Below are positions 3,131-28,857 of a stretch of 34,911 bases of DNA, piece after piece (position 1 is the stretch's first letter; every line of letters begins with the position of its first letter). The stretch is from positions 1 to 34,911 of IMG/VR virus record IMGVR_UViG_3300022752_000210, one strand, 5' to 3'. Below the pieces are notes generated by a model, which made no database searches, was not told the origin of the DNA, and saw only the letters and a program-made list of their open reading frames with translations. The position numbers and the translations under genes are program-made. This DNA is from a virus.

Positions 3131-3142
3131 TAATTTTTCACC

Positions 3143-3151
3143 ATATTTATT
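3143..3151 (+). promoter_or_regulatory. Late-promoter-like motif before leader gene 3182
   Basis: ATATTTATT at 39 nt before the ATG of 3182, in an intergenic gap. The motif and the bases after it through about 3163 are also found at 7014-7034, and with one change at 28145. This recurrence before unrelated genes supports a promoter. Confidence 0.55.
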
Positions 3152-3219
3152 ATTAAATTTAAATCACTCAAAAAAAAAATCATGAAATTATCAGAATTTA
3201 AATCTCTTATTAGAGAAGA
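3143..3219 (+). repeat. Left arm of cargo cassette A (promoter + UTR + leader)
   Basis: This 77-nt stretch matches 28145-28220 with one substitution and one length change in an A run. It covers the promoter motif, an A-rich 5' UTR and the first 38 coding bases of the leader. Identity includes noncoding and synonymous positions, so it exceeds what protein conservation would maintain. Confidence 0.8.
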
Positions 3220-3418
3220 GATTAAACAATCATTACAGGAAGCACATTATACTTCTAGAACATATATATCAAACTTAGAACAAGCATGGGACGGTCCTGT
3301 TGATGCGTACGATGATCTAAATAACTTTTTCGCTGATGTTAAGCAACATCCGGATGTATACGGTGACTATAAGGCATGGGCGAAACAAATTGCTAAAGTA
3401 TTACAAAAATATAAATAA
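3182..3418 (+). CDS. Small leader-type cargo protein
   Basis: A 78-residue protein beginning MKLSEFKSLIREEIKQSLQE then Ala, the archetype of the class I leader. Possible gp21 sites are IRE (residues 10-12) and LQE (18-20). The remaining 58 residues are Tyr/Asp/Lys rich (SNLEQAWDGPVDAYDDLNNFF) and probably form a small helical domain. No catalytic motif is evident. It has its own promoter motif and is followed 12 bases later by a second leader gene sharing one terminator. Function unknown; packaging in the capsid is inferred. Confidence 0.7.
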   Translation: MKLSEFKSLIREEIKQSLQEAHYTSRTYISNLEQAWDGPVDAYDDLNNFFADVKQHPDVYGDYKAWAKQIAKVLQKYK

Positions 3419-3430
3419 TAATCCTCAATC

Positions 3431-3967
3431 ATGAAATTATCAGAATTTAGAGCTCTTATTAAAGAGGAAGTTAAAAAAGTAATTACCGAAAATAATACGG
3501 TCGATAATACGTCTGAGTCATTTAGAAAATCGATCGAAGATAAGATTTCTAAGTTATTTGATAAATTAGTACCCGGATCCGGTCCTGCAGAAACCGTCGA
3601 GGGCGAAATGGTACGTGCTATTAATAGGATATTATTTCGATATTATAATGACGGAGATTTTTATTTTAGAGGCTACGGTAAAGAAACCGTATCACCGTCC
3701 GTTAAGTATTTACTGGTAGTTCCGCCGAGCGATGTTATACGCGAGTTAAAGACGTTATTCGCAAAAGCAAAGTTAAATGCTCCGGAAAAACATCCTACTA
3801 AGAAGTATCAATACGTCGGTATGTATGAGGACACCGATGGTTATCAGAATGCTATATATTTAGCTGCCGATGTCATTTACAAATATGTAAAATCTAAAAA
3901 TGGTAAATATACGCCGAATACAATGAATTCTAGAAACAATACTAAAATTACTAATAAATCTACTTAA
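3431..3967 (+). CDS. Leader-type cargo protein with conserved GPAETVEGEMVRAINR block
   Basis: A 178-residue protein. Residues 1-20 are a class I leader (MKLSEFRALIKEEV..., ITE as possible site). Residues about 45-90 (LVPGSGPAETVEGEMVRAINR then RYYNDGDFYFRGYGKET) form a block I have seen in phage and bacterial hypothetical proteins of unknown function. The C-terminus is Asn/Lys/Thr rich. The body is visibly richer in CpG-containing codons (CCG, TCG, CGC) than the capsid gene nearby, hinting at separate origin. It ends just before a strong terminator. No biochemical role can be assigned. Confidence 0.7.
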   Translation: MKLSEFRALIKEEVKKVITENNTVDNTSESFRKSIEDKISKLFDKLVPGSGPAETVEGEMVRAINRILFRYYNDGDFYFRGYGKETVSPSVKYLLVVPPSDVIRELKTLFAKAKLNAPEKHPTKKYQYVGMYEDTDGYQNAIYLAADVIYKYVKSKNGKYTPNTMNSRNNTKITNKST

Positions 3968-3972
3968 TATTG

Positions 3973-4005
3973 AAATGCCTCGAATAGAAATATTTGAGGC
4001 ATTTT
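3973..4005 (+). terminator. Intrinsic terminator with GAAA tetraloop (cassette A right arm)
   Basis: A stem of AAATGCCTC (3973-3981), a G-U pair and AATA pairs with TATT plus GAGGCATTT (3996-4004), closed by GAAA at 3987-3990 and followed by a short T run. The 42 bases 3973-4014 are identical to 28825-28866. It ends the 3182-3431 unit. Confidence 0.85.
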
Positions 4006-15375: not shown

Positions 15376-15909
15376 ATGCCACTATTTGGATCCGGACGAG
15401 ATGCTTCGTTAATTTATCACATAAATAAAGAACTTTTACATAGAATAGTCGACGTAGAAGTTTTAATATATCGACATGATGTTGCTAAAAGCGACGTGAA
15501 TTTGTACGGTGAGTCTAGAAGGAAAGTGTATAACACACCTAAACTCGTACACGCTTTGATCAATCTATCTCCAATAGAATCGAATGCTGATGAAAATTTG
15601 ATAGATAGAACTCAAATAGTGGAATTCGCTTTTCTTAAAGACGATTTAATTGAGAATGATTTAATTCTTCAAGTTGGTGATATAATTGAATATGATGCTG
15701 CATTTTGGGAGGTAGACAATGCTACAGACACTCAGTACTGGGTTGGTAGAAACCCGTTAACTAGATTTGGGACGACTGATCACGGTTACTCAATATCAGT
15801 GGTAGCAGCTGCTCATAGAACTAGATTGTCTGGATTGGATATAATAGATACTAGTGCAAGTAGTGTATCCGATTCAGCCGTAAGAAAGTCAACTCCTAGA
15901 TATTTATAA
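15376..15909 (+). CDS. 14: Neck/head-tail joining protein, T4 gp14-like
   Basis: A 177-residue protein beginning MPLFGSGRDASLIYHINKEL. The central part (VEVLIYRHDVAKSDVNLYGE, IVEFAFLKDDLIENDLILQV, GDIIEYDAAFWEVDN) follows the pattern of gp14 neck proteins, though it is shorter than T4 gp14 (256). It sits between gp13-like and gp15-like genes with 1- and 2-base gaps, which is strong contextual support. The C-terminal tail is Ser-rich and probably flexible. A generic head-tail connector is the alternative. Confidence 0.65.
   Translation: MPLFGSGRDASLIYHINKELLHRIVDVEVLIYRHDVAKSDVNLYGESRRKVYNTPKLVHALINLSPIESNADENLIDRTQIVEFAFLKDDLIENDLILQVGDIIEYDAAFWEVDNATDTQYWVGRNPLTRFGTTDHGYSISVVAAAHRTRLSGLDIIDTSASSVSDSAVRKSTPRYL
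15900..15908 (+). promoter_or_regulatory. Possible promoter-like motif at gp14/gp15 junction
   Basis: ATATTTATA, only 12 nt before ATG 15912 and inside the last codons and stop of the upstream gene. The spacing is shorter than at other sites, so this may be chance. Confidence 0.25.
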
Positions 15910-20561: not shown

Positions 20562-21224
20562 ATGAGAATATTTCAACCGATTATAACAGGCTCATTGAAT
20601 GTATCAGGATCAGTGACGGCATTTTCATTTACTGGAAGTTTACAGGGTTCTGCTTCATACGCTGTAACTGCATCATATGCAATGAATGGTGGCGGTGGTA
20701 GTTCCAATCCGGGAGGATCAAATACTCAAATTCAATACAATAACTCAAATGCATTCGGTGGCGTACCGGTTTTAACTTATGATGGTAGTAGATTGGTAGG
20801 TACCGGTTCTTTTAGTGGTAGTTTTACCGGTGAATTTAATGGTACTGTTACTACTGCAGCTACTGCATCCTATTCTACTAATTTCACTGCAGCTACTAGT
20901 TTAACGGTTGATGGTGCTCAAATTCGAGGAGCATCAGTCAATTCTACTATAGTTGGTAGTAACAATTTATTTACGCAAGCAACCGGTTCATATACATCAG
21001 CAATTGCAAATTACACTTTACGTAATGGTGCAAATGCTAGAGCTGGTCAATTTATTACTGTATGGAATGGTACAACCACCTCATATACAGATATATCTAC
21101 AGTTGATATTGGTAGTACCTCAGATATAACATTCGTATCATCAATAGTATCTAGTAACATTCAAATTAATGCTACGGCATTAACCTCAGGCTGGACTATA
21201 AAAATGTTAGTCACATATTTATAG
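20562..21224 (+). CDS. Short tail fibre protein, paralogue of 17081
   Basis: A 220-residue protein that opens with the fibre repeat language (IITGSLNVSGSVTAFSFTGS, then SYAVTASYAMNGGGGSS). It contains GGSNTQIQYNNSNAFGG, a block common in marine phage fibres, and ends in a beta-rich domain (about 140-220, TLRNGANARAGQFITVWNG...). It starts 1 base after the long fibre, apparently in the same transcript. Likely an accessory or distal fibre; which subunit it binds cannot be read. Confidence 0.75.
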   Translation: MRIFQPIITGSLNVSGSVTAFSFTGSLQGSASYAVTASYAMNGGGGSSNPGGSNTQIQYNNSNAFGGVPVLTYDGSRLVGTGSFSGSFTGEFNGTVTTAATASYSTNFTAATSLTVDGAQIRGASVNSTIVGSNNLFTQATGSYTSAIANYTLRNGANARAGQFITVWNGTTTSYTDISTVDIGSTSDITFVSSIVSSNIQINATALTSGWTIKMLVTYL

Positions 21225-22879: not shown

Positions 22880-23143
22880 ATGGAAAACAAAATCACACAA
22901 GAAGAACTGGCTTCAATCAAAAAATACCAGCAAACTTATTTGGATCTTACAAATCAATTCGGTGCCAAATCTTTGGAACGATTTCGATTGAATCTGGAAT
23001 TGGAAAAAGTATTTGAAAAATTGGAATCTTTGGAAACTCAAATTAGACAATGTTTGAATGATGAGTCCAATTTTCTAAAACAAATTGAAAGTAAGTACGG
23101 TATCTGTACTATAGATATCGACACGGGAGAAATTTTGAAATAA
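22880..23143 (+). CDS. Small coiled-coil protein
   Basis: An 87-residue protein dominated by helix (about 5-70), with heptad-like leucines (LASIKKYQQTYLDLTNQFG, LELEKVFEKLESLETQI), ending KYGICTIDIDTGEIL. Similar small coiled-coil proteins are common near tail genes of T4-like marine phages, with no known function. A weak promoter-like ATATATTAT lies 24 bases upstream. Its stop is followed within 3 bases by the inverted repeat controlling the sheath gene. Confidence 0.6.
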   Translation: MENKITQEELASIKKYQQTYLDLTNQFGAKSLERFRLNLELEKVFEKLESLETQIRQCLNDESNFLKQIESKYGICTIDIDTGEILK

Positions 23144-23146
23144 CGG

Positions 23147-23211
23147 ATATTTGATTTAAATTGATTATATTTATAAGTAAATCAATAATCAATTTAAATT
23201 GAATCAAATAT
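23147..23211 (+). promoter_or_regulatory. Long inverted repeat sequestering tail sheath start, promoter in loop
   Basis: The left arm at 23147-23168 equals the reverse complement of the right arm at 23185-23211 except for a 5-base bulge in the right arm. The right arm ends on the AT of the sheath start codon, and the loop contains most of the ATATTTATA motif. Transcripts entering from upstream could fold and hide the start; transcripts begun at the internal promoter would lack the left arm. T4 genes such as e (lysozyme) and the I-TevI gene are known to use this logic. Confidence 0.65.
23167..23175 (+). promoter_or_regulatory. Late-promoter-like motif of tail sheath gene
   Basis: ATATTTATA followed by AGTAAATC, 43 nt before ATG 23210. 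Its first two bases overlap the left arm of the inverted repeat. Confidence 0.55.
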
Positions 23212-25651
23212 GGCTGAAAAAGTAGTATCTCCTGGCGTGTTCTCAAATGAACGCGACCTATCATTCCTACCTCAGGGTATAGCACAAATTGGTGCGGCAT
23301 TTGTAGGACCCACCATTAAAGGCCCTGCTTTTATTCCTACCATCGTAGAATCATACGAAGAATTCGTTAAGTATTTCGGTGATACCACTGAAGAATCATA
23401 CGTACCGTATGCTGTTAAAGAATATTTACGAAACTCTGGTAGAGCTACAATAGTTCGAACTTTGTTTGAAGACGGTTACACGATGACTGCACCTGTGGGT
23501 ATCGTAGTATCCGGTTCATACGGTAAAAAGTTAGTTGCAACTCTACATCCTACTAGAACTATTAGTGGTAGTACTGCATTTTATGACAATACCAATCCGA
23601 CTGCATGTTTCGAAAAAACCACTATTACTAACAGTGGTACTACAAGTGGTAGTTTCGTAATCAATATTTCAGGTAGTGCATATACCTCAGGTAGTGTATA
23701 TTCATCTAGTATAGTATCGACTAACGGTACCTATTTAACTAGAACGTTCCCATTAGGTCCTAAGGCAGCTGGACCTGCTTATTTATATAATGCATTTGAA
23801 ACTACAATATCTGCTTCATTGGCTGCAGATGCTAATACTAGAGTAGAAATAGTTACCGGATCTGCAAAAGCATGGGATTTCAGTTACGATGCCACGTATG
23901 CAAGTACTCCTTGGATCACTTCACAGAAGGTAAATGGTGATATCACTAAAGATTTATTTAGATTTCATAGAATGTCTGATGGTCTACCTTCCAATTATGA
24001 AGTGAAAGTTGGTATTACAGACGTGAAACCTGCCGGATCAGTTCCAGGTTCTACGTATGGTTCATTTACAGTGATAATTAGAGCAGTTGATCAGACAGGT
24101 ATCCAGGGATCTCCTTTTAATACCGACGACTCCGATCAAAGGCCGAACGTATTGGAAGTGTTTGATAATGTTAACTTGGATCCAAATTCATCCAATTACA
24201 TTGCTCGTCGTATTGGTGACAGATATGCTACTATTGCTGATTCCGGCAAATTGATTTATTCCGGTAATTACAAAAATATATCTGCATACGTTCGAGTTGA
24301 AGTTGATCCGGATGTAGAAAACATAGCAAATTCACCCGATCTAGTTCCATTCGGATTTAGAGCTTTATATTCTCCAGTACCTTCCGGTTTTGTAGGTTCT
24401 GTAACAGTTCCTAGTGCTTCATATGTAGCATCACAAACTATTGGCGGTTCATACAATAAGAGAAAGTATTTTGGATTTGAATATGATTTTACTACCACTG
24501 ACAATTTAAATTATTTGAATCCGCTACCTGAATCAGGATTGACTACCGGTTCAAATGCAGACTTTTATTTAGGTAATTATACTCAACATGCCGGCGCCGG
24601 TTCTGGTACTGGGTCTATAGACTTAACCACATCGACTGTACTAGATTCTAGAAAGTTCATGGTACCGTTCCAAGGTGGATTTGATGGTACTAGGCCGAAC
24701 TTAGTGAAACTAAACGGTTCTGATATTAATACCGGAAACATGCAAGGATTTGACTTTTCTAGTACTACAGCTACCGGATATGTTGCATTTAAAAAGGGTA
24801 TTGATGCTGTAAAGAACCCTGACGAATTTGATATTAATATGCTAGTGTTGCCAGGTACCAATTACAGCGATCATACTAACATAATCAATTATGCTTTAGA
24901 TGTAGCTTTAGATAGAGCTGACACGTTTGTAGTATTTGATTCTGATGGTCTACCGTCTAAAGGTGTAACTCCTGATTCTGCATTGTCCAGTGTAGTAAAT
25001 GGTAACGTTACCACAGTAGATAACAATTACAGTGCTACTTATTGGCCTTGGGTTAAAATTCTAGATACCAATATAAACAAACCAGTATGGGTACCGACTG
25101 CGGTAGTATTGCCTGGTGTTATTGCTTACTCTGATAGAGTTGCAGCTGAATGGTATGCACCTGCAGGTTTAAATAGAGGTGGTTTACCTAATGTTATTGA
25201 AGCTTGGTCTCGATTAACTCAAGATGAACGTGATGCATTGTATACAGCTAGAATTAATCCAATTGCAACGTTCCCGGGTCAAGGTGTAAGTGTATGGGGT
25301 CAGAAGACTTTGCAATCTAAACCTTCTGCATTAGACAGAATAAATGTACGTAGATTGTTGATTGCAATTAAAAAGTATATTGCCACTTCAACCAAATATT
25401 TGGTATTCGATAACAATACTGCTGCAAATAGAAACAGATTCTTAAATATAGTTAATCCGTATTTGAGTTCAATTCAACAGCGTCAAGGATTGTATGCATT
25501 CAATGTAGTAATGGATGAAACCAATAATACACCGGATGATATCGATCGTAATATTATGCGAGGTGCTATTTACCTTCAACCTGCGAAATCAGCTGAATTT
25601 ATCATCCTAGATTTCAATATTCTAAGAACAGGTGCATCGTTTACTGCTTAA
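23210..25651 (+). CDS. 18: Tail sheath protein, T4 gp18-like
   Basis: An 813-residue contractile sheath subunit. The N-terminal VSPGVFSNERDLSFLPQGIA and GAAFVGPTIKGPAFIPTIVE... YFGDT are typical of gp18. The C-terminal polymerising domain includes WYAPAGLNRGGLPNVIEAWS, LTQDERDALYTARINPIATF and the end AEFIILDFNILRTGASF. The middle insertion domains (about 100-500) are Thr/Ser rich and longer than in T4 (gp18 is 659 residues). A terminator follows at once. Initiation is probably controlled by the hairpin just upstream. Confidence 0.96.
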   Translation: MAEKVVSPGVFSNERDLSFLPQGIAQIGAAFVGPTIKGPAFIPTIVESYEEFVKYFGDTTEESYVPYAVKEYLRNSGRATIVRTLFEDGYTMTAPVGIVVSGSYGKKLVATLHPTRTISGSTAFYDNTNPTACFEKTTITNSGTTSGSFVINISGSAYTSGSVYSSSIVSTNGTYLTRTFPLGPKAAGPAYLYNAFETTISASLAADANTRVEIVTGSAKAWDFSYDATYASTPWITSQKVNGDITKDLFRFHRMSDGLPSNYEVKVGITDVKPAGSVPGSTYGSFTVIIRAVDQTGIQGSPFNTDDSDQRPNVLEVFDNVNLDPNSSNYIARRIGDRYATIADSGKLIYSGNYKNISAYVRVEVDPDVENIANSPDLVPFGFRALYSPVPSGFVGSVTVPSASYVASQTIGGSYNKRKYFGFEYDFTTTDNLNYLNPLPESGLTTGSNADFYLGNYTQHAGAGSGTGSIDLTTSTVLDSRKFMVPFQGGFDGTRPNLVKLNGSDINTGNMQGFDFSSTTATGYVAFKKGIDAVKNPDEFDINMLVLPGTNYSDHTNIINYALDVALDRADTFVVFDSDGLPSKGVTPDSALSSVVNGNVTTVDNNYSATYWPWVKILDTNINKPVWVPTAVVLPGVIAYSDRVAAEWYAPAGLNRGGLPNVIEAWSRLTQDERDALYTARINPIATFPGQGVSVWGQKTLQSKPSALDRINVRRLLIAIKKYIATSTKYLVFDNNTAANRNRFLNIVNPYLSSIQQRQGLYAFNVVMDETNNTPDDIDRNIMRGAIYLQPAKSAEFIILDFNILRTGASFTA

Positions 25652-25697: not shown

Positions 25698-26261
25698 ATG
25701 AAACTATCAGAATTTAAATCTCTTATTAAAGAGGAAGTCGACTTAGCTTTATTTGAACATCAGTTAACTGAAGGTAAAATTTCAGATTTTTTATCTAAAA
25801 TAAAGTTAGCGGCTATGAAAGCGGCTAAGGACAATTACAGTGATGCGATTGCACATATTGATGTGGATAAATTGAAGGCTGAACCGATGTCTATATCGAA
25901 ACTTGATAAGGTGCAACGTGAATTGGAGTCGCAGTCTCAACAAATTTCTGAAGGATTTGTCGACAAATTGAAATCATTCGCTCGTAAGGGATTTGCTATC
26001 GGTGCAATTGGAAGTGTAATTTCCGGAGCAACTGTAGCAGTATCTGCTATGAATTATTTAGATTATTCATTCACTAAATGGTATTATACTACTATACAGG
26101 GTATGGCTAAACCGGAAGTAATGAAAGCAATGAATGATATATATGGTGCGAAGGTTGAAGAATCTAGTATATGGTTCACATTCGGAATGTATGTATTCAG
26201 TGTATTCTTCGTTATAGCTTTGTTATCATACGCATCAATTCGTATAAACAAGCAAAAATAA
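25698..26261 (+). CDS. Leader-type cargo protein with two membrane segments
   Basis: A 187-residue protein. The class I leader MKLSEFKSLIKEEVDLALFE is followed by HQLTEG, giving possible gp21 cuts after LFE or LTE. The middle is charged helix. Two hydrophobic segments follow (about 97-117, AIGAIGSVISGATVAVSAM, and about 155-178, WFTFGMYVFSVFFVIALLSY). A packaged membrane protein would be unusual and could act at the envelope during DNA entry; that is speculation. The gene sits just after the sheath terminator with no obvious promoter of its own, so it may depend on readthrough. Confidence 0.66.
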   Translation: MKLSEFKSLIKEEVDLALFEHQLTEGKISDFLSKIKLAAMKAAKDNYSDAIAHIDVDKLKAEPMSISKLDKVQRELESQSQQISEGFVDKLKSFARKGFAIGAIGSVISGATVAVSAMNYLDYSFTKWYYTTIQGMAKPEVMKAMNDIYGAKVEESSIWFTFGMYVFSVFFVIALLSYASIRINKQK

Positions 26262-26271
26262 AACATAAATT

Positions 26272-26601
26272 ATGAAACTATCGGAATTTAAATCTCTTAT
26301 CAGAGAAGAAGTTAAAAAAGTATTAGTAGAGCAAGATACAAATGAAGCTATGGAGGCGATAGAAGCCATTAAAAAGCACGTTAAGATTTTAATGGATACT
26401 GATATCGCGAAAGAGGATGCAGTGCTACAACGACTTCTGGCGAAGTATACAGGGCTTTTAGGTAAAATCACCGGATACATTAAAAAGAAAGGTGCTGAAT
26501 CTGCGGAGCCGACTGAAGAACCTGCTGAGGAACCTAAACGAGATCTTCGCAAAATAGAATCTCCAAAAGAAAAGACTGAAGAGGAGCCGGAGGTTGCATA
26601 A
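26272..26601 (+). CDS. Small leader-type cargo protein with acidic tail
   Basis: A 109-residue protein with leader MKLSEFKSLIREEVKKVLVE, a helical core (NEAMEAIEAIKKHVKILMDT, then AVLQRLLAKYTGLLGKITGY) and a Glu/Pro-rich tail (EEPAEEPKRDLRKIESPKEK). LVE before Gln is the possible gp21 site. It follows the membrane cargo gene by 10 bases and precedes a promoter-bearing gap before the tail tube gene. No enzymatic motif. Function unknown. Confidence 0.66.
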   Translation: MKLSEFKSLIREEVKKVLVEQDTNEAMEAIEAIKKHVKILMDTDIAKEDAVLQRLLAKYTGLLGKITGYIKKKGAESAEPTEEPAEEPKRDLRKIESPKEKTEEEPEVA

Positions 26602-28110: not shown

Positions 28111-28144
28111 TTACAAAAATTTCATATTTTGAATCAGAATACTA

Positions 28145-28220
28145 ATAATTATTATTAAATTTAAATCACTCAAAAAAAAATCATGAAATTATCAGAATTT
28201 AAATCTCTTATTAGAGAAGA
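28145..28220 (+). repeat. Left arm of cargo cassette B (promoter + UTR + leader)
   Basis: Matches 3143-3219 with one substitution (inside the promoter motif, giving ATAATTATT at 28145-28153) and one A fewer in the A run. The motif lies 38 nt before ATG 28183. The paired right arm is the terminator at 28825. Confidence 0.8.
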
Positions 28221-28821
28221 AGTTCAAAAAGTACTTTCTGAATATTATGCTGGAGGTAATGACACTATCGGTAAAGTAATGAAAAGTGGAGATTGGTCTT
28301 GGATTTCTGCTAAAGAACTAAGTAAGCGTCCATTTAAACAGTTAAATTTAGTTAGTAAGTTTGCACCGATCCACGCCGGTTTACAGAAATTTGCAAATGT
28401 AAAGGTACAAGACTTTTTTACCAATAAAGAGTATAATGAACTGGAAGAAATTCAAGAACAACTTATGGATGCCGGTTACGATGCTGCAGATCTCAAAAGC
28501 ATGTTTAATGATGTTTATAAAATAGTAGCTACTGCTATTAAAAGAAATCAATCCGGATTGTCAGAAGCAGCTCGAGTATCACAAAAAACTAAAGATGAAG
28601 TATGGGCTACCATAAAAAATACATTGAACACGGATAAGAGACACAGGCGTAATGACGCATTGGATGTAAAAGATTTGCTAGGCTTCGCAGGATTTTCGGG
28701 CGATAAAATACCTCTTGTTAGAAACATTGCTCATGAATTGGTAAAAGATGGAATATTGATACCGAGTGAATCTAAATGGGGAGAGCTTCGATTTAAAGTT
28801 AATAAAGCCGCTTTAAAATAA
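28183..28821 (+). CDS. Leader-type cargo protein, possible winged-helix C-terminus
   Basis: A 212-residue protein with leader MKLSEFKSLIREEVQKVLSE then Tyr. The middle is helical (KRPFKQLNLVSKFAPIHAGL, EYNELEEIQEQLMDAGYD). The C-terminal part (about 150-210, TDKRHRRNDALDVKDLLGFA, then LVRNIAHELVKDGILIPS and LRFKVN) has the helix-turn-helix plus hairpin rhythm of a winged-helix domain, which would allow nucleic acid binding; this is a guess from pattern. It is the sole gene of cassette B, between the duplicated promoter-leader arm and the duplicated terminator. Confidence 0.68.
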   Translation: MKLSEFKSLIREEVQKVLSEYYAGGNDTIGKVMKSGDWSWISAKELSKRPFKQLNLVSKFAPIHAGLQKFANVKVQDFFTNKEYNELEEIQEQLMDAGYDAADLKSMFNDVYKIVATAIKRNQSGLSEAARVSQKTKDEVWATIKNTLNTDKRHRRNDALDVKDLLGFAGFSGDKIPLVRNIAHELVKDGILIPSESKWGELRFKVNKAALK

Positions 28822-28824
28822 AAA

Positions 28825-28857
28825 AAATGCCTCGAATAGAAATATTTGAGGCATTTT
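28825..28857 (+). terminator. Intrinsic terminator identical to that at 3973
   Basis: Same 14-position stem and GAAA loop as 3973-4005. The identity extends over 42 bases (28825-28866), including the trailing CATGATCGA. It ends cassette B 4 bases after the stop of 28183. Confidence 0.88.

Follow-up and report, generated by a model that had tools for sequence, protein, structure and literature searches.

A promoter-enclosing hairpin at the tail sheath start of a T4-related phage and its probable role as a transcript-origin switch

The start codon of the tail sheath gene in a T4-related phage lies at the edge of a long inverted repeat that encloses a promoter-like motif. This arrangement raises the question of whether sheath protein is made only from RNA begun at the gene's own promoter. 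The stretch of DNA analyzed here, referred to as the window, is a viral record of 34.9 kb. Genes for the head maturation protease, major head protein, tail sheath, tail tube, and baseplate hub were recognized in it, together with PhoH-like and polynucleotide-kinase-like genes. No relative of the window was found among the genome contigs searched.

The hairpin and its genome setting

The features of the sheath leader are listed in Table 1. The hairpin begins three bases behind the stop codon of an 87-aa ORF and takes up nearly all of the 66 bases between that stop codon and the sheath ATG. No family could be assigned to the 87-aa ORF, which gave two remote matches only when used as a search query. 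Two ORFs of unknown function (187 and 109 aa; 25698-26601) separate the sheath gene from the tail-tube gene in the window, unlike in Flavobacterium phage immuto and other relatives, where the two genes are adjacent. Elsewhere in the window, two unrelated-looking ORF cassettes (3140-4004 and 28140-28857) are preceded by almost the same leader (ATTATTAAATTTAAATCACTCAAAAAAAAATC-ATGAAATTA) and followed by almost the same hairpin (AAATGCCTCGAATA..TATTTGAGGCATTT), possibly forming a repeated early promoter-terminator unit.

Table 1. Features of the sheath leader and flanking genes in the window.
Feature	Position	Strand	Evidence and remarks
Upstream ORF, function unknown, putative source of read-through	22880-23143	+	87 aa; ORF list, aligned with L001-L003
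Left arm, ATATTTGATTTAAATTGATTAT	23147-23168	+	Sequence and inverted-repeat search; missing from a transcript begun inside the loop
TATTTATA, putative late-promoter motif of the clade	23168-23175	+	Enriched before ORFs of relatives; found at the corresponding position ahead of the sheath gene in L001-L003 and in most relatives
Loop, containing the remaining bases of the promoter motif and the presumed site of transcription initiation	23169-23184	+	Fold
Right arm, ATAATCAATTTA-[AATTG]-AATCAAATAT	23185-23211	+	Sequence, fold; reaches into the ATG
Self-palindrome TCAATTTAAATTGA inside the right arm	23189-23202	+	Sequence; folds of transcripts starting at 23180-23187
Bulge AATTG in the right arm, 5 bases	23197-23201	+	Sequence
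Tail sheath gene, start covered by the hairpin	23210-25651	+	813 aa; PHROG 23 tail sheath, E 1.3e-68

The sequence-only reading had described a 22-base left arm and a 27-base right arm as exact reverse complements apart from a five-base bulge, and both the sequence and an inverted-repeat search bear this out. The arms match over 22 pairs, and the repeat ranks first in the window. Nowhere else in the 34.9 kb does a perfect 12-bp stem enclose a loop of 3-80 nt, and shuffled versions of the whole window contain a mean of 0.45 such positions. The RNA fold of the hairpin has a z-score of -4.7 (0/200 shuffles as good), and 2 of 5000 dinucleotide shuffles of the intergenic region 23144-23212 fold as well. 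The right arm had also been said to run into the sheath ATG. The contact is present, but the arm takes in no more of the ATG than its A and T, and the pairing frays there; the AUG is predicted to be 40-48% unpaired in read-through transcripts.

The promoter motif in the loop

A late-promoter-like motif had been read in the loop, and a motif is indeed found there, TATTTATA, which overlaps the end of the left arm by its first T. It differs from the T4 late motif TATAAATA, of which it is the reverse complement. Relatives were retrieved with the sheath protein, and the motifs were sought up to 70 nt upstream of their ORFs. TATTTATA was located upstream of 100 of 349 ORFs (4.4 expected), whereas TATAAATA preceded 3 of 349 (4.7 expected). 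In relatives, TATTTATA stands 20-45 nt before the starts of the sheath, tube, and hub genes. It also occurs in the cultured phage immuto, and in Microcystis phage Mel-JY01 it precedes several genes, though not directly the sheath gene. Because of its enrichment before the ORFs of relatives, TATTTATA is very probably the late promoter of this phage clade, and it would give a late-promoter motif to phages with few cultivated members. The cyanophage late promoter motif is NATAAATA (PMC2984593); none of the papers searched calls TATTTATA a late promoter or reports a hairpin of this kind at a sheath gene. A search of the relatives' records for gp55 families yielded only a marginal match in immuto, and the nearest 102-kb relative encodes a gp45-like clamp. 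With T4-like spacing, transcription is presumed to start at about 23180-23182.

On the plus strand of the window, TATTTATA is found at 15901, 21216, 23168, 26675, 28895, and 29938. The copy at 21216 would already feed late RNA into the sheath gene. Since upstream structural genes on the same strand have their own TATTTATA, the read-through that is blocked may itself be late mRNA; its source could be early, middle, or late RNA.

Pairing in relatives and its predicted effect

Conservation of the left arm in related phages, as expected from the first reading, held for the pairing and failed for the letters. The nearest relatives with this leader, L001-L003 (68-72% at the amino acid level; L001, 72%), share the promoter motif with the window in alignment but not the arm sequences, and the hairpin core, sought as an exact match in viral contigs, was not found outside the window. 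Pairing was therefore assessed by comparing how well the left arm upstream of TATTTATA pairs with the bases before its own ATG and with the arms of other phages. Initial stratified or clustered tests gave P values from 0.0002 to 0.1, depending on arm lengths and clustering. The main test used a left arm of 20 nt, a right arm of 14 nt plus the ATG, and clustered leaders without Shine-Dalgarno sequences, excluding the window. In it, own arms of sheath leaders paired better than swapped ones (Z -3.5, P 0.0002). The arm lengths of this permutation test were picked after looking at the data, which is answered only in part by a held-out set, a second batch of sheath leaders fetched later (Z -3.15, P 0.001). 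Decoys that keep relatedness (left arm reversed, complemented, or taken from further upstream; right arm reversed) gave no signal, and pairing of the left arm with the first codons gave a weaker signal than pairing with the pre-ATG bases. No signal was obtained when the same test was applied to tail-tube genes and to 168 other promoter-led leaders. A signal in the baseplate-hub set disappeared once four homing-endonuclease genes were removed. A broad test over all promoter-led genes revealed no general excess of promoter-enclosing hairpins, and the hairpin is thus gene-specific and not a property of all promoters.

The conservation is uneven. Pairing is not kept in about a quarter of the leader clusters, little of it is present in relatives L085, L181, L189, L207, L229, and L230, and relatives folded one sequence at a time often reach only modest z-scores; the hairpin of the cultured phage immuto is weak. 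RNAalifold gave no consensus structure on two alignments, as would be expected from arm registers that differ between leaders; this remains a weakness.

A first alternative takes the inverted repeat as a chance product or as a template-switch copy of the right arm, with a left arm devoid of function. The privacy of the arm letters to the window agrees with it, as does the very AT-rich composition of the region, with its AAATTT palindromes; the right arm, moreover, resembles the L001 leader, so that the left arm may have arisen recently as a reverse complement of the right arm. We consider this account unlikely, though the least so among the alternatives, as relatives keep the pairing at the sheath gene with other letters and the hairpin is placed exactly between the stop and start codons, around the promoter. 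A template switch as origin would also be compatible with a switch as function.

Many relatives carry another version of the arrangement, in which GGTTTCGRGTTAYGTTGTGA lies directly before TATTTATA and is complementary, counting U-G pairs, to UUACAACA-AUGGCYGAAA. A common form, GTTTCGAGTTAYGTTGTGA, is the antisense of the AUG together with codons 2-4, and in folds the stem covers these codons and leaves the promoter in the loop. The common version reaches from about -8 to +10 relative to the start, whereas the right arm in the window covers -25 to +2 and the arms have a different sequence. From these differences in sequence and reach, the window hairpin is an independent form. Arm pairs with other letters include GTTACG/CGTAAC (L060), GTTTCG/CGAAAC (L049), and CGTTATA/TATAACG (L047); at the start region of L001, TTTTTCAG pairs with CTGAAAAA and TTGTAT with ATACAA. 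In an alignment of the relatives' leaders whose register was set by a rule and not by pairing, 80% of cells were paired, compared with 38-51% in slid versions. Double-change cells numbered 15 (8.5+-2.6 in shuffles), and the covariation score was 0.131 (0.104+-0.011 in shuffles). As a separate observation, some sheath leaders that do bear a Shine-Dalgarno sequence (L005, L007, and L242) have an anti-Shine-Dalgarno stretch upstream of the promoter motif. In L005 (ACTCCTA/TAGGAGT) and L242 it is the Shine-Dalgarno sequence that is paired instead, and in L005 and L007 the stretch is located inside the coding end of the upstream gene.

The repeat in the window and the GTTTCG..GTTGTGA element of relatives could also act at the DNA level, as an operator or upstream promoter element bound by a regulator of the sheath promoter. 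In favor of this, the GTTTCG element immediately precedes TATTTATA, with little variation in the distance between them, and is specific to the sheath gene: 22 of 48 sheath leaders have it, compared with 1 of 320 leaders of other promoter-led genes. The letters of the element, on the other hand, co-vary with the pre-ATG bases, the U-G pairs at columns 10-40 and 11-39 of the rule-based alignment are not complementary in DNA, and the element is not recognizable in the window or L001, which makes this explanation improbable. A related candidate, GTTTCG as a -35-like box, was rejected in view of its rarity in other promoter-led leaders and its complementarity to the start region.

Cleavage of a read-through stem of about 20 bp by an RNase III-like activity, splitting the upstream mRNA from the sheath mRNA, would suit the window stem of about two helical turns. 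It is nevertheless very unlikely: the stems of relatives mostly have 6-10 continuous pairs, too short for a usual RNase III site, and processing would leave the promoter in the loop and the arm reaching the AUG unexplained. An intrinsic terminator of the upstream gene, suggested by the hairpin's position just after the end of the 87-aa ORF, is scarcely credible, because the stem is nearly all A-T and not G+C-rich, no T-run follows it, and the hairpin is absent from the results of the terminator scan.

A transcript-origin switch, by comparison, predicts a change in the start region. In folds of sheath leaders, 33% of start-region bases were paired to the left arm, compared with 17% for shuffled arms (P 0.0004) and 15-21% in other genes. 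In the sheath leaders of relatives, the predicted openness of the start region is 0.45 in read-through RNA and 0.68 in RNA begun at the promoter, and this increase exceeds that in other genes (P 0.0002). Folding the window leader with and without the left arm, a check named in the sequence-only reading, came out in the expected direction with a moderate predicted rise from 0.41 to 0.57. This is below the rise in many relatives (for example, from 0.17 to 0.68 in L013), since the short RNA keeps a small hairpin from the palindrome TCAATTTAAATTGA in predicted folds and the AUG is at a fraying end. Initiation in Flavobacterium has been measured to depend on the structure of the start region (PMC6847099). 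We infer a Flavobacterium-like host for the window phage because the leaders lack Shine-Dalgarno sequences.

An RNA transcript-origin switch on the tail sheath gene is the best explanation of these comparisons and a fairly probable one. Of the switch first proposed at this gene, we find the promoter between the arms and a start region that falls within the right arm, and the pairing recurs in relatives; that the promoter is late, that transcription starts in the loop, that the hairpin lowers translation, and what purpose it serves we infer. Read-through RNA from upstream would hold both arms, and the hairpin would then take up the bases before and at the sheath AUG, resulting in poor ribosome initiation. 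RNA begun at TATTTATA, inside the loop, would lack the left arm, and its freer start region would permit translation. Synthesis of a self-assembling tail protein would in this way be tied to the gene's own promoter, and the kept pairing suggests that sheath protein comes only from messages begun there. The wider reading is about evenly balanced between true and false: that an entire clade of T4-related phages, many of them probably in Bacteroidota or other non-Shine-Dalgarno hosts, uses TATTTATA late promoters of its own and guards the start of a single structural gene, the sheath, by an arm antisense to the AUG and codons 2-4, the pairing being kept while the sequence turns over, with sheath made only from its own promoter.

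Comparison with known switches

In T4, read-through RNA is described as hiding the start regions of e, soc, 49, and I-TevI, and RNA from the late promoters lacks the left arm; at gene e, the read-through hairpin lowers expression about 100-fold (PMC3014915). The window leader resembles that of e in having a late-class motif between the left arm and the translation start, a predicted read-through fold over the start, and promoter RNA that would lack the left arm. It shares with the T4 type a start region within the stem, although the predicted occlusion of the AUG is only partial; a start region predicted to be more open in promoter-initiated than in read-through RNA; and pairing kept in related phages, as judged from own and swapped arms, decoys, the held-out set, and pair counts. 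Gene e, however, hides a Shine-Dalgarno sequence and uses TATAAATA, the consensus read by gp55, whereas the window leader has no Shine-Dalgarno sequence, uses TATTTATA, and belongs to a tail sheath gene. The effect at e is a measured one, while the switch in the window is a prediction from sequence and computation.

The promoter-in-hairpin layout is also that of I-TevI, I-TevII, I-TevIII, segB, and mobE of Aeh1 (PMC2988022). Those homing endonucleases are mobile-element genes, in contrast to the sheath gene, which is an essential structural gene. Four other promoter-in-loop hairpins of comparable or greater strength were detected in the clade (L003:6447, L003:10325, L092:264, and L101:1289), all preceding genes with matches to HNH or homing-endonuclease families. 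In these very strong hairpins the loop contains TATTTATA or TATTTATT and the ATG lies where the stem begins, which is the I-TevI/segB layout of T4 in another clade. The switch thus seems to be present in this clade in its classical setting, and the sheath hairpin of the window falls within the strength range of these four.

The test for promoter-enclosing hairpins recovers T4 e, I-TevII, and 26. The T4 sheath gene 18, homologous to the sheath gene of the window, has the late motif TATAAATA 36 nt before its start but, unlike the window gene, no significant promoter-enclosing hairpin in the same test (z -0.9). Known cases of the T4 switch are mostly at genes that are harmful if expressed early (lysozyme, homing endonucleases) or that lie in early regions. 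A switch with conserved pairing at the sheath gene suggests a cost of sheath protein made at the wrong time or in excess, perhaps through polymerization of sheath alone; T4 polysheath is an example of sheath polymerizing by itself. It also indicates how a start-occluding RNA switch can work where there is no Shine-Dalgarno sequence to hide. The window leader would work like the T4 switch, as a variant on the sheath gene of an apparently non-Shine-Dalgarno clade, and it is not counted in the T4 set because its promoter consensus differs.
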